In this document: positions 44,292 through 62,965 of the stretch, one piece after another
How the letters are laid out: each line of letters starts with the position of its first letter
Numbering within the stretch: position 1 is the stretch's first letter
Program-made: the position numbers and the translations under genes
The notes under the pieces: generated by a model
Databases searched by the model: none
What the model was told of the DNA's origin: nothing
The model's input: the letters and a program-made list of their open reading frames with translations, nothing else
NCBI RefSeq assembly: GCF_028463845.1
Contig: NZ_CP116805.1
Coordinates: forward strand, 1,922,001 to 1,986,000
Source of the DNA: Gimibacter soli
GTDB lineage: Bacteria; Pseudomonadota; Alphaproteobacteria; Sphingomonadales; Kordiimonadaceae
DNA length: 64,000 nucleotides
Direction: 5' to 3'

Positions 44292-44306
44292 GTACAAAAA
44301 CAGAAC
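44292..44306. promoter_or_regulatory. LexA-like site upstream of recA (distal)
   Basis: GTAC-N7-GAAC, one mismatch from the alphaproteobacterial LexA box GAAC-N7-GAAC. It lies 83 bases before the recA start, between the divergent genes. Confidence 0.45.
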
Positions 44307-44325
44307 AAACAATATTGCGCCATGG

Positions 44326-44340
44326 GAACAAACATGGTAC
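44326..44340. promoter_or_regulatory. LexA-like site upstream of recA (proximal)
   Basis: GAAC-N7-GTAC, again one mismatch from GAAC-N7-GAAC and a mirror of the distal site. It lies 49 bases before the recA start. recA is expected to be in the SOS regulon, which supports the assignment. Confidence 0.5.
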
Positions 44341-44388: not shown

Positions 44389-45471
44389 ATGGCAATGCCG
44401 GAACTGCAACTCGTTAAAGGAAACTCAGTGGATAAGTCCAAAGCGCTAGAAGCCGCCCTCAGCCAGATCGACCGTGCGTTCGGCAAGGGTTCTGTGATGA
44501 AACTCGGCCAGAAGGGAACGGCCATCGAGATCGAATCGATCTCCACCGGTTCTCTCGGCCTTGATATCGCGCTTGGGATTGGCGGCCTGCCCAAAGGCCG
44601 TATCGTTGAGATTTACGGCCCGGAAAGCTCGGGTAAAACGACGCTCGCGCTGCATGCCGTGGCGGAATGCCAGAAGAAGGGCGGCACCGCTGCTTTTGTT
44701 GATGCCGAGCATGCCCTTGATCCCGTTTATGCCCGTAAGCTGGGCGTGGACCTGAACGAACTGCTCGTCAGCCAGCCGGACACCGGCGAACAGGCGCTGG
44801 AAATTGCCGATACGCTCGTTCGTTCGGGCGCTGTCGATATCCTCGTCGTTGACTCGGTCGCAGCCCTTACGCCACGCGCCGAACTTGAAGGCGAGATGGG
44901 CGACAGCCACGTGGGCCTGCAAGCCCGCCTGATGAGCCAGGCGCTGAGGAAGCTCACTGCTTCGATCTCGCGCTCGAATGCGATTGTTATCTTCATCAAC
45001 CAGATCCGCATGAAGATCGGTGTGATGTATGGCAGCCCGGAAACCACCACGGGCGGTAACGCGCTCAAATTCTATGCGTCGGTTCGTCTCGATATCCGCC
45101 GCGTCGGCCAGATCAAGGACAAGGAAGATATCGTCGGCAACACGACCCGCGTGAAAGTGGTGAAGAACAAGGTTGCCCCGCCGTTCAAACAGGTTGAGTT
45201 CGATATCATGTACGGCGAAGGCGTTTCCAAGAACGGCGAAATCCTCGATCTTGGCGTCAAGGCCGGTGTCGTCGAGAAATCGGGTTCCTGGTACAGCTAT
45301 TCCAGCCAGCGCATCGGGCAGGGCCGCGAGAATGCCAAGAAATTCCTCGCCGACAATCCGGATGTGGCTGCCGATATCGAGCGGGTGATCCGCCAGAATT
45401 CCGGCACCATGAACGAAGCGATGCTGACCTCGCCGGATGATGAAGACGGCGGCGACTATAGCGACGAATAA
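44389..45471 (+). CDS. recA: Recombinase RecA
   Basis: A 360-residue strand-exchange ATPase and LexA coprotease. Walker A GPESSGKT is at residues 77-84; the mobile loop and L2 DNA-binding loop ([29 protein letters not shown]) are intact. The C-terminus is acidic ([11 protein letters not shown]), the regulatory tail. The ATG at 44389 has AAGGGGG upstream. LexA-like sites precede it and a strong terminator follows. The window also holds a perfect-LexA-box gene at 61443-61604. Confidence 0.98.
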
Positions 45472-60143: not shown

Positions 60144-60331
60144 TCTTTGTCTTTCTATATCGGGCTGTCATATGAAGATGGCATCTGTGGCGCCTTTGTA
60201 AAGGGGGGAGGCACAGAAATCGGTAGCCCTTCGGGTTTTGGCGCGCCCCTTGCTTGCCAATCGCGTCGGGTATGGCATTCCGGTTGCGGGCGCCATGAGC
60301 TAAAGTGACGTTCCAAGGATGGGGTGCAGTG

Positions 60332-61075
60332 ATGTTCAATCATTATACGAAGACTTCTCTTTCCGGCCTTCTGGTTGCCCTCACACTTTCGGGCTGCGGC
60401 GCGCTCGGGATCGGCGGCAAGGACGAGGATGTGCAGAAAACATCTGACCGCCGTGACCAGATTCTGGTGAACACGGGGGCAACCGGCCCGCAACCCGGCC
60501 TCAACGGCCCGGTCGAAGATCGGGTGCTGCGCGACAAGTTCCGTGACCTTGAAGGCGTGTTCATGCGCGTGGAAGAACGGCTCGGCAATATTGAAGGTCG
60601 GCTCAACGCGCTTGAAGCCAATCAGGTGGCCTCGGCGAGCGAAGCGATGACTGCCCAACGCGATTCGGCCTCTGCTTTCAGTGCCGAACTCGACAGCCTG
60701 AAGCAACAGGTTGCCACCCTGAACAACGTGAACCGCAATCAGGCGCAGGAACTGCAGCGCCTCAATGCAGATGCCGAGCGGGCGCGGCAGGCCTCGATGC
60801 CGCCTCGCTTCAGCGTGCATCTTTCATCCTACCGTACCATCGAACAGGCGCGAGTCGGGTGGAGACAACTTGCGGCTGCATTCGGTGCGCCGCTTGGCGA
60901 GCTGAAGCCATATATTGTGACAGAACAACAGGATGGCCTCGGTTCCTTCATCAAATTGCAGGCTGGCGTGCTGAACAGTCAGCAAGCAGCGGACGAACTT
61001 TGCGCCACATTGAAGCGCATGTCGGGCGATCAATTCTGTGCTGCAATGCGGCTGGCTGGCGATCCGTTACAGTAA
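60332..61075 (+). CDS. SPOR-domain lipoprotein
   Basis: A 247-residue outer-envelope protein. A lipobox LSGC (VALTLSGCGALG) follows the signal peptide, so the mature N-terminus is lipidated. A central coiled coil (about residues 65-145, VEERLGNIEGRLNALEANQVA and LDSLKQQVATLNNVN) leads to a C-terminal SPOR domain (RFSVHLSSYRTIEQARVGWRQLA onward). SPOR binds denuded septal peptidoglycan, suggesting a role in division or wall growth. The start at 60332 is preferred over a longer frame. It is divergent from the PadR gene. Confidence 0.85.
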   Translation: MFNHYTKTSLSGLLVALTLSGCGALGIGGKDEDVQKTSDRRDQILVNTGATGPQPGLNGPVEDRVLRDKFRDLEGVFMRVEERLGNIEGRLNALEANQVASASEAMTAQRDSASAFSAELDSLKQQVATLNNVNRNQAQELQRLNADAERARQASMPPRFSVHLSSYRTIEQARVGWRQLAAAFGAPLGELKPYIVTEQQDGLGSFIKLQAGVLNSQQAADELCATLKRMSGDQFCAAMRLAGDPLQ

Positions 61076-61170: not shown

Positions 61171-61212
61171 AAAAAGGCCGTCGTGAGGCCTTGACAAAAG
61201 AGGCCATTTTTT
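61171..61212 (+). terminator. Candidate terminator after the SPOR lipoprotein gene
   Basis: AAAAAGGCC (61171-61179) can pair with GGCC-A-TTTTT (61202 onward), and shorter GGCCT/AGGCC pairing precedes a six-T run. Competing pairings exist. It begins about 95 bases after the stop codon. Confidence 0.55.
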
Positions 61213-61219
61213 GTCGGAT
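61191..61219 (+). promoter_or_regulatory. Possible promoter of the structured RNA
   Basis: TTGACA (61191-61196) with a 17-base spacer to TCGGAT (61214-61219). The -10 match is poor (3 of 6). It would start RNA near 61226. Confidence 0.3.
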
Positions 61220-61225
61220 ACACCC

Positions 61226-61405
61226 ACCTTCGGGGAAATGCTTCAGATAGTGCGACTTGGGGAGGTTGAGCCCTATCTGATACTAGCGCTGGTCAAACGG
61301 CTGCTGACATTTCCTCGAAAGGCCGGGCAGCGTCCCGATGGGGGGAAAACGCTCGGATTCTGGCGCGGCGAGAGGGTGCAAGCCCAATCTGCCGCGCCAT
61401 TTTTT
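61226..61405 (+). ncRNA. Candidate structured small RNA of unknown family
   Basis: About 180 bases without a credible gene. A 12-base helix pairs 61229-61240 with 61308-61319 (one G-U). Inside it 61243-61250 pairs with 61273-61280 (8 perfect pairs). A 9-base GC-rich hairpin (61361-61369 with 61391-61399) is followed by six T residues, an excellent terminator with no coding gene before it. It does not resemble 6S, SRP, RNase P, tmRNA or riboswitches that I know. It points towards the SOS-type small gene at 61443-61604 from the opposite strand. This stretch, 61076-61442, holds no supported protein gene. Confidence 0.5.
61361..61405 (+). terminator. Strong intrinsic terminator of the structured RNA
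   Basis: Arms TGGCGCGGC and GCCGCGCCA are perfectly complementary; the interior also pairs in part (AGA/TCT, GGG/CCC). TTTTTT follows immediately at 61400-61405. Confidence 0.85.
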
Positions 61406-61442
61406 ATGTGCTGGCCTCAGGGCGCACAGCCAATCCCGAACT

Positions 61443-61604
61443 TCAGTTGAGACGCAGGCCGCTGGCGCTGCCCATCGGGCGGCTGGCCCGGCGTTGCCGC
61501 CAGAAACGCGACACGGGGCCAAGGGCATCCTGGAACGCGGTCATCCCGAAGGCGCCGATCATCACAAACAGGCCGAAGAGCAGGGCATGGAGCAGGCTGG
61601 TCAT
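61443..61604 (-). CDS. Small single-span membrane protein, apparently SOS-controlled
   Basis: A 53-residue open frame that does not overlap a larger gene. The start MTSLLHALLFGLFVMIGAFG gives one membrane span (about residues 4-24). A basic, polar tail (FWRQRRASRP) follows, so the C-terminus is probably cytoplasmic. The ATG at 61604 has AGAGG at proper distance. Two perfect GTTC-N7-GTTC (LexA) boxes flank its -35 and -10 elements. Small SOS-induced membrane peptides include the division inhibitor SidA of Caulobacter and the toxin TisB of E. coli; similarity here is in architecture only, not sequence. Function is unproven. Confidence 0.7.
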   Translation of the reverse strand: MTSLLHALLFGLFVMIGAFGMTAFQDALGPVSRFWRQRRASRPMGSASGLRLN

Positions 61605-61622
61605 CTGGTCGTCCTCTTGAAT

Positions 61623-61637
61623 GTTCTTGTTGTGTTC
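61623..61637. promoter_or_regulatory. Perfect LexA box (GTTC-N7-GTTC), proximal
   Basis: An exact alphaproteobacterial LexA box, 19 bases before the start of the small membrane protein gene. It overlaps the -10 element of its promoter. Confidence 0.85.
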
Positions 61638-61663
61638 TTATTCTGCTATTGTGCGCCCGTCAA
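61635..61663 (-). promoter_or_regulatory. Promoter of the small SOS gene
   Basis: On the minus strand TTGACG (61658-61663) and TAAGAA (61635-61640) have a 17-base spacer. A LexA box abuts the -35 and another overlaps the -10, so LexA would fully occlude it. Confidence 0.65.
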
Positions 61664-61678
61664 GAACAAAAAAAGAAC
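61664..61678. promoter_or_regulatory. Perfect LexA box (GAAC-N7-GAAC), distal
   Basis: The second exact box; its N7 is all A. It directly abuts the -35 element of the small gene and could also influence the divergent ppx/gppA gene. Confidence 0.85.
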
Positions 61679-61766
61679 ATATCACTTGAGGTGGTGTACG
61701 GATGGCTTTGTGTTGCTAAGGCCTGCCTGCTGGTGTTAAGAGGAACTCAAGTGCGCCGGAACGGGC

Positions 61767-61822: not shown

Positions 61823-62965
61823 ATGTCGTTAGACGAAATCAACGCGGGGTCGCCGGGCGCCGATGGGGAAATGACTCCACCGCGCAGCACCGAGCGTTCA
61901 CCAGCCCGGGCCGATGGTCCGGGATCGCGCACCAGCCGCCCTCAGGCGCGGCCCGTGTATAGCGCGATCGACCTTGGCACCAACAATTGCCGTCTCCTGA
62001 TCGCCCGACCGACCGCCGGTGGCTTCCGTGTCATCGATGCCTTTTCGCGCATCGTGCGGCTCGGCGAAGGCGTTGCGCAAACCCGTCGCCTTTCCGACGA
62101 CGCGATGAACCGTACCATCGAAGCCCTGAAGGTCTGCGCCGACAAGATCGACCGGCGCGGCGTCACCTGCATGCGCCATGTGGCGACCGAAGCCTGCCGC
62201 ATGGCCGAGAACAGCGACGAGTTTCTGGCGCGGGTGCGCGAAGAAACCGGCATCAATCTGGATATCATCAGCGCGGGCGAGGAAGCGCGGCTTGCTGTCA
62301 TGGGCTGCCAGTCGTTGATTGCCCCCGGCAACCGGCATGCGCTGGTGTTCGATATCGGCGGCGGCTCCACCGAGCTGATCTGGGTGAAGGTGCTGCCTGA
62401 GCGCCGCACCGAGATCCAGGGCTGGATGTCGATCCCGTGGGGTGTGGTCTCGCTGACCGAAGCCTTCGGCGCCTCCGGTGCTACGGTGGGGATCGATAAA
62501 TATCACCGCATGGTATCGACCGTGCGCGATCACCTGCAGGCGTTCGAGGACGCACATCAGCTGTCGAAGGTCGTCAAGCGCAAGCGGGTCCAGTTCCTGG
62601 GCACGTCGGGCACGGTGACGACGCTCGCGAGCCTGCATCTGAAACTGCCGCGATACAGCCGGGACCGTGTGGACGGCGCCTGGATGAAATCGTCGGAAAT
62701 TGCCCGTCTTTCCTACAGTGTCGCCATGATGTCGCATGAGGAACGGGCAGCCGAGCCCTGCATCGGGCACGAACGCGCCGACCTTGTGGTGGCGGGTTGC
62801 GCCATCCTCGATGCGATCCTCGGCATGTGGAATGTACAAAGCCTGCGCGTGGCCGACCGTGGCATCCGCGAAGGCATCCTGCGCGGCCTGATGTCGCCCG
62901 AACGCTCGCTGCCCCAACAGGCGCGGCGCGGTTATCGGGGCGGGCGGCAGCAGGGCCAGCGATGA
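61823..62965 (+). CDS. ppx: Exopolyphosphatase / pppGpp phosphatase family protein
   Basis: A 380-residue member of the sugar kinase/Hsp70-like Ppx-GppA superfamily. The phosphate-binding loops are visible: AIDLGTNNCRLLIA and FDIGGGSTELIWV, with SAGEEARLAVMGCQSL between. It degrades polyphosphate or pppGpp. The short length lacks the C-terminal HD domain of E. coli Ppx. The first 50 residues are a charged low-complexity tail, so a later start is conceivable; the ATG at 61823 has a weak ribosome site. rlmE follows 16 bases later, a pairing common in alphaproteobacteria. Confidence 0.9.
   Translation: MSLDEINAGSPGADGEMTPPRSTERSPARADGPGSRTSRPQARPVYSAIDLGTNNCRLLIARPTAGGFRVIDAFSRIVRLGEGVAQTRRLSDDAMNRTIEALKVCADKIDRRGVTCMRHVATEACRMAENSDEFLARVREETGINLDIISAGEEARLAVMGCQSLIAPGNRHALVFDIGGGSTELIWVKVLPERRTEIQGWMSIPWGVVSLTEAFGASGATVGIDKYHRMVSTVRDHLQAFEDAHQLSKVVKRKRVQFLGTSGTVTTLASLHLKLPRYSRDRVDGAWMKSSEIARLSYSVAMMSHEERAAEPCIGHERADLVVAGCAILDAILGMWNVQSLRVADRGIREGILRGLMSPERSLPQQARRGYRGGRQQGQR

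Follow-up and report, generated by a model that had tools for sequence, protein, structure and literature searches.

A short open reading frame in Gimibacter soli, divergent to a Ppx/GppA phosphatase gene (ppx), is preceded by two exact copies of the LexA-type motif GTTC-N7-GTTC and raises two questions: is it a genuine gene of the SOS response and, if so, what would its product do in a cell with damaged DNA? The window analyzed here is a 64,000-nucleotide stretch of contig NZ_CP116805.1, in which the frame and its surroundings occupy less than three kilobases (Table 1).

The frame opens with an ATG at position 61604 and encodes 53 amino acids followed by a stop codon (MTSLLHALLFGLFVMIGAFGMTAFQDALGPVSRFWRQRRASRPMGSASGLRLN). 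Hydropathy analysis of the product revealed one N-terminal membrane span (KD19 of 2.02) and a tail with a net charge of +5, and AlphaFold2, run without an alignment, modeled a helix over residues 2–40 (mean pLDDT 81.8). The initial annotation, made from the letters alone, had described a 53-codon gene with a ribosome site, encoding one membrane span plus a basic tail, and this description is borne out in full, a Shine-Dalgarno-like AGAGGA lying seven bases 5′ of the ATG.

Table 1. Features of the small-gene locus, in window coordinates.
Feature	Coordinates	Strand	Basis
SPOR-like protein gene, convergent	60305..61075	+	SPOR 18.7 vs 21-bit Pfam cut-off; tblastn
ORF, 53-residue single-span membrane protein	61443..61604	-	frame kept in relatives; selection on span
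Variable basic C-terminal tail, residues 28-53	61446..61523	-	hydropathy, alignment, selection
Membrane span, residues ~4-24	61533..61595	-	hydropathy, own-family alignment, AlphaFold2
Shine-Dalgarno-like AGAGGA, 7 bases before ATG	61612..61617	-	sequence; relatives' leaders
LexA-type box 2, overlaps -10 and likely transcription start	61623..61637	+	exact GTTC-N7-GTTC
-10 element TAAGAA	61635..61640	-	sequence; 35-locus comparison
-35 element TTGACG, abuts box 1	61658..61663	-	sequence; 35-locus comparison
LexA-type box 1, 5' of -35	61664..61678	-	exact GTTC-N7-GTTC; pair kept in relatives
Ppx/GppA phosphatase gene, outside the proposed mechanism	61823..62965	+	Pfam PF02541; tblastn in 24/24 own-family loci

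Read on the gene strand, box 1 (61678–61664, GTTCTTTTTTTGTTC) and box 2 (61637–61623, GAACACAACAAGAAC) are both exact, mutually inverted and 41 bases apart. The −35 and −10 elements that they enclose are separated by a 17-base spacer at this locus; TAAGAA agrees with TATAAT at three of six positions, and box 2 begins within it, so that three letters are common to both. The promoter had been proposed as TTGACG-17-TAAGAA bracketed by two exact boxes, and all of its coordinates and sequences proved correct. A generic promoter scan returned no site anywhere in the region, the small gene's own promoter included.

The weight that such boxes deserve was assessed against chance. The window contains five single exact boxes for 1.65 expected, a number reached in two of 100 shuffles, and the whole genome contains 89, against 101 for a reversed-pattern control. 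As single boxes are no commoner than this control genome-wide, a lone box counts for little, and weight was given to boxes with A/T-rich cores; the same figures speak for a reading in which chance boxes happen to stand before a spurious frame. The inverted pair gives a different picture: a search of 196 genomes of the order for two exact inverted boxes with 20–36 bases between them showed that this genome has one such pair and that 38 of the 196 genomes carry it, while the reversed pattern used as control was recovered in none of the 196. The earlier argument that two perfect boxes 41 bases apart are very unlikely to arise by chance stands for the inverted pair; exact boxes taken singly are not rare.

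The families within the order are labeled f1 to f8 here, f1 being that of G. soli (29 genomes). The 38 pair-bearing genomes are distributed over f1 (24 of the 29), f2 (two), f4 (one), f6 (four), f8 (five) and f5 (two), and two further f1 genomes, G024 and G008, carry the pair with one mismatch. In three f1 genomes (G022, G026 and G027), the main ppx locus was not found on searching, G022 being rated 100% complete. The two f5 pairs (G147 and G178), without T-rich cores or an abutting TTGAC, look like chance; these two genomes and G036 (f2) were removed from the 38 to give the set of 35 loci compared below. At the G036 locus (L135), where the two exact inverted boxes have A/T-rich cores and a spacing of 35 bp, inspection revealed no span ORF behind the pair.

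Eighteen further ppx loci from f2 to f8 had usable upstream DNA (L162, with only two bases available upstream of ppx, carries no information). G050 and G054 carry their known pairs there, the G039 locus (f6) has a pair with one mismatch followed by a small span ORF, and the G034 (f7) and G042 (f2) loci have one exact box each, again with a small span ORF behind; in the other 13 of the 18, all four f5 loci included, exact boxes are absent, as are one-mismatch boxes with A/T-rich cores. In the wider Alphaproteobacteria, 28 of 30 genomes, drawn from 30 other families, yielded a ppx locus. Neither the box pair nor a small divergent span ORF was found in any of these 28 loci (the L169 stretch was misplaced in the ORF scan), where lone boxes amounted to one exact box with a GC-rich core and three one-mismatch boxes with A/T-rich cores. 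A stricter pattern, requiring TTNAC after box 1 of the pair, was found in this genome only among 385 genomes sampled across the class, of which five, this one included, belong to the order. Compared across genomes, as initially suggested, both the frame and the boxes are conserved in relatives. Spread by phages or plasmids was considered and rejected, as none of the viral contigs searched contained the strict promoter pattern and the DNA of the locus gave no plasmid match.

Judged over the 35 loci, the promoter is the best-kept unit of the locus. The distance between boxes is 40–48 bases (40–43 in 31 loci), and TTGAC abuts box 1 exactly in 27 of the 35. Once each locus was oriented by its −35 match, agreement with CTTGAC was six of six in 27 loci, five of six in seven and four of six in one, versus one to four of six in the opposite orientation. 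When spacers of 11 to 24 bases were compared, 17 gave the best mean match to TATAAT (3.29 of six, followed by 2.89 at 15), and 19 of the 35 loci reach a match of at least four at this spacing; restricting the choice to 16–18, with ties given to 17, assigns a 17-base spacer to 30 loci. The −10 matches are weak throughout (three to five of six). Cores are T-rich in box 1 and A/T-rich in box 2, and 22–37 nt separate the end of the −10 element from the chosen start codon, start codons having been picked by the analyst after inspection. Seven differences separate the 56-bp operators of this genome and its congener G001, all of them within the 17-bp spacer.

Exact boxes with A/T-rich cores also precede, in this genome, lexA (Peptidase_S24 and LexA_DNA_bind domains), uvrA and the genes of an IMS-family polymerase and a radical-SAM protein, as well as another gene without a Pfam match that we read as imuA-like; the exact box at a ribonucleotide reductase gene has A or T at five of its seven core positions. 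The motif GTTCN7GTTC is common to Caulobacter and this locus, whereas the inverted pair departs from the single box given for ~97% of Caulobacter SOS promoters in the accessible text of PMC12700426. At the level of predicted sites, control of the small gene by LexA is well supported. Elsewhere, a C5 DNA methyltransferase gene (L079, 273–1403, reverse strand) has an exact A/T-core box starting 112 bases before its ATG, and a small HTH gene (L094, 1070–1474, reverse strand) has one starting 130 bases upstream; the latter's product is HigA-like on our own reading only, and Caulobacter higBA is discussed alongside the SOS response in the part of PMC13384398 available to us. In the window itself, upstream of recA (44389–45471, forward strand), two one-mismatch boxes lie at 44292–44340, in the same orientation and 34 bases apart.

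A short single-span ORF lies just after box 2 in all 35 loci, compared with 323 of 21,000 random places in the same loci (1.5%); the hydropathy cut-off of 1.65, applied equally to this control, was set after the lowest observed value (1.69) had been seen, so that the 35 of 35 is partly fitted. The proteins measure 34–93 residues (30 loci), the 34 residues of that from G006 being scarcely more than the span, and tail charge is positive in 28 of the 30 and zero in two. Two span positions, F13 and G17, never vary in the 24 proteins of the own family; G20 is shared by 23 of them and Q25, immediately past the span, by 22. Conservation is concentrated on one face of the helix (permutation p = 0.013 over residues 7–26, a range chosen by the analyst). 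One alignment in which the L131 row starts five residues too soon entered none of the counts.

Selection was examined by pairwise comparison. Between this genome and its congener, the span codons show no nonsynonymous and four synonymous changes, against 5.5 and 3.5, respectively, in the tail; a second close pair gives zero versus two in the span and two versus four in the tail. In six more distant pairs, which were hand-picked, share members and are not independent, pN is 0.14–0.33 in the span and 0.44–0.64 in the tail, for a pS of 0.45–0.83. By these counts constraint is weaker on the tail than on the span, yet the tail is not free in every pair, and the span looks like the working part. The sequences themselves thus support a gene, a promoter layout with paired boxes, the conservation of these and selection on the span. 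Chance boxes before a spurious frame, favored only by the single-box counts, are an exceedingly improbable explanation, as the paired operator and the frame are both conserved and the frame is under selection; on the pair control and this selection it was rejected.

A profile built from the 24 own-family proteins recovered a 25th member outside the building set, in G024 (E 4e-13), whose operator has one mismatch, and missed that of G008, where the gene is present and one box carries one mismatch. Beyond f1, the profile gave weak matches in 14 genomes (E 0.0019–0.099), of which only that of G045 stands behind a known operator; the others were taken as chance. When the five f8 proteins were compared with the own family, hhalign detected no similarity between the profiles (probability 0.1%), so a profile common to f1 and f8 was not obtained; a shared function would consequently rest on promoter and architecture, and any common descent of the two sets is conjectural.

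Library searches with the 24 aligned members returned no confident match to a known family in Pfam, NCBIfam, PHROGs, PADLOC or PDB. Pfam at E 0.1 gave five weak matches, none to a toxin family (best, DUF2627, E 0.027); the best NCBIfam match was to Na+/H+ antiporter subunit G (E 0.0049, in three members) and the best in PHROGs to families of unknown function (E 0.0027), while PADLOC gave no match and PDB no profile match. We took the weak matches to reflect the common composition of membrane helices. The suggestion that the protein may belong to a new family therefore agrees with the searches made, and the best reading is of a sequence family new to these libraries, present in Kordiimonadales and kin. 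The literature searched, outside which most subscription journals fall, held nothing pairing Kordiimonas with 'SOS response' or LexA, and the family goes unreported in the accessible portions of PMC4211646, PMC12700426, PMC13396833, PMC8565304 and PMC3567139.

With a gene and its control in place, the question becomes that of function, for which the neighboring genes supply faint context. In the own family, the small gene is divergent to ppx in 24 of 24 loci and the SPOR-like gene is convergent to it in 23 of 24 (tblastn), and the ppx neighbor is also present in f6 (G045, G050 and G054) and f2 (G029). This adjacency in the f1, f2 and f6 genomes looked at would suit an SOS-induced regulator of a membrane protein outside the divisome, whether a protease, a transporter or a Ppx-linked or envelope factor, and the conserved helix face would imply a partner without designating which one. 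Also on this side, a distant Ppx/GppA paralogue lies 6–7 kb from the box pair in three f8 and f4 genomes looked at (G041 and G071 in f8, G031 in f4), the main ppx being elsewhere. In f8, however, operator and layout occur in another neighborhood, beside other conserved genes (the downstream gene in five of five loci, the upstream gene in four of five) and away from the main ppx, so that the link to ppx looks positional; moreover, several known SOS-induced one-span peptides arrest division. We consider such a regulator unlikely.

Another possibility is a depolarizing SOS peptide of the TisB/DinQ type, which would lower membrane potential and slow growth or compact the nucleoid. According to the accessible text of PMC3567139, E. 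coli DinQ has 27 amino acids, one span and two LexA operators, its overproduction depolarizes the membrane, and dinQ and tisB are restrained by antisense RNA, their transcripts being processed. The protein studied here belongs to the same size class, with one span and SOS-type control, and the opposite strand just past the gene (61211–61410, forward strand) bears a candidate structured RNA, which falls in the interval separating the small ORF from the SPOR-like gene, folds much more stably than shuffles (z −4.36) and has a GC stem and T run at its end. Yet its predicted pairing with the beginning of the mRNA is equalled by shuffled versions (131 of 200 as low), the congener alone of the loci searched has a counterpart (94%), and no promoter-like site was found on either strand, although the same scan missed the gene's own promoter. 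It had no Rfam match at curated thresholds, only two chance-level ones below them, and a known RNA family beside the gene was accordingly set aside.

The leader is also short, at 22–37 nt in the 35 loci, in contrast to the processed transcripts of dinQ and tisB, and no Pfam toxin family was matched. A search of the window around the gene for direct repeats of at least 14 yielded none; at the locus of Pseudokordiimonas caeni (Kordiimonadales), one 16-nt repeat (81%) occurs over the start codon, inside the SPOR-like gene. Hydrophobic moments of the spans range from 0.05 to 0.86. With no antisense RNA supported at the locus and no long leader, a type I toxin-antitoxin layout was rejected, although an antisense RNA encoded elsewhere in the genome may exist. 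We judge a depolarizing peptide quite improbable and infer that division arrest, which the initial annotation had named beside depolarization without choosing between them, is to be favored.

The explanation that we prefer, and hold to be fairly probable, is that of a LexA-repressed gene encoding a one-span, SidA-like peptide of the inner membrane that would arrest cell division during DNA damage. Arrest at FtsW, FtsI or FtsN is our best guess, held with the same fair degree of confidence, because of the precedents of SidA and YneA, the selected helix face and the fact that SulA was not found: Pfam matched no SulA domain in the small protein, and PF03846 gave no match in any of 31 relatives, the E. 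coli control being positive.

Our model is inferred at every step, from LexA binding and induction to the topology, target and effect of the peptide. A pair of LexA dimers would hold the promoter shut, the first in contact with the −35 element and the second lying over the −10 element and the transcription start, and a block on both elements would suit a gene that is harmful when leaky. RecA filaments would trigger LexA self-cleavage, both boxes would clear and the short-leader mRNA would be translated at once. The peptide would insert with its N-terminus out and its C-terminus in, and in most cases its basic tail would serve as a cytoplasmic anchor; as two of the 30 tails are without net positive charge, such an anchor would not be universal. 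Selection on the helix face suggests a membrane partner, and this face (F13, G17 and G20, with Q25 at the cytoplasmic end) may pack against a transmembrane helix belonging to a late-divisome protein, with FtsW the likeliest, so that septal wall synthesis would be held off, as by SidA in Caulobacter.

Known systems offer several points of comparison. SidA of Caulobacter crescentus, described in the available part of PMC4211646 as a 29-residue SOS-induced inner-membrane protein interacting with FtsW, is likewise a tiny alphaproteobacterial membrane protein under SOS-type control, the likeness being one of size class and control; the proteins reported here are longer (34–93 residues in 30 loci) and mostly have a basic tail. 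From the same source, Caulobacter DidA is a damage-induced protein of 71 amino acids, also with one span, but it is SOS-independent and binds the SPOR domain of FtsN, whereas the present gene has LexA-type boxes. YneA (Bacillus), SosA (Staphylococcus) and ChiZ (Mycobacterium) are small membrane proteins too, induced by damage or the SOS response and inhibiting late division, according to the accessible text of PMC13396833. There, the YneA span binds TM7 of FtsW, and FtsW binding is predicted for SidA, SosA and ChiZ, in models that its authors call not of high confidence, with the SidA site on the opposite side of TM7 from that of YneA. YneA and ChiZ have a LysM domain; here the tail is short, mostly basic and probably cytoplasmic, and Pfam detected no LysM in the small protein or its own-family members. 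DinQ and TisB share SOS-type control of a membrane peptide with this gene, DinQ also its single span and two LexA operators, and differ in the leader, antisense RNA and toxin-family respects given above.

More tentatively, and with somewhat less than even confidence, the gene may encode a DNA-damage checkpoint peptide that is ancient and general in the clade of Kordiimonadales and kin. The helix would be the best-kept part of this protein, and two LexA dimers, facing each other at a distance of about four helical turns, would lock the promoter. If true, a regulatory architecture would have persisted in five families even as the protein sequence diverged almost past recognition. It was chiefly the operator, and less the protein, that led to the gene, and the paired operator may serve as a search key for further such genes. 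Small membrane regulators are short and easily missed, as pointed out in the accessible text of PMC4211646, and the present work would extend this point to SOS division inhibitors. It provides a concrete candidate for a division inhibitor in an alphaproteobacterial group where SulA was not found (31 genomes). The 35 natural variants reveal which span residues are kept, and hence where a partner helix may bind; should the explanation hold, they would form a natural collection of FtsW-blocking helices.
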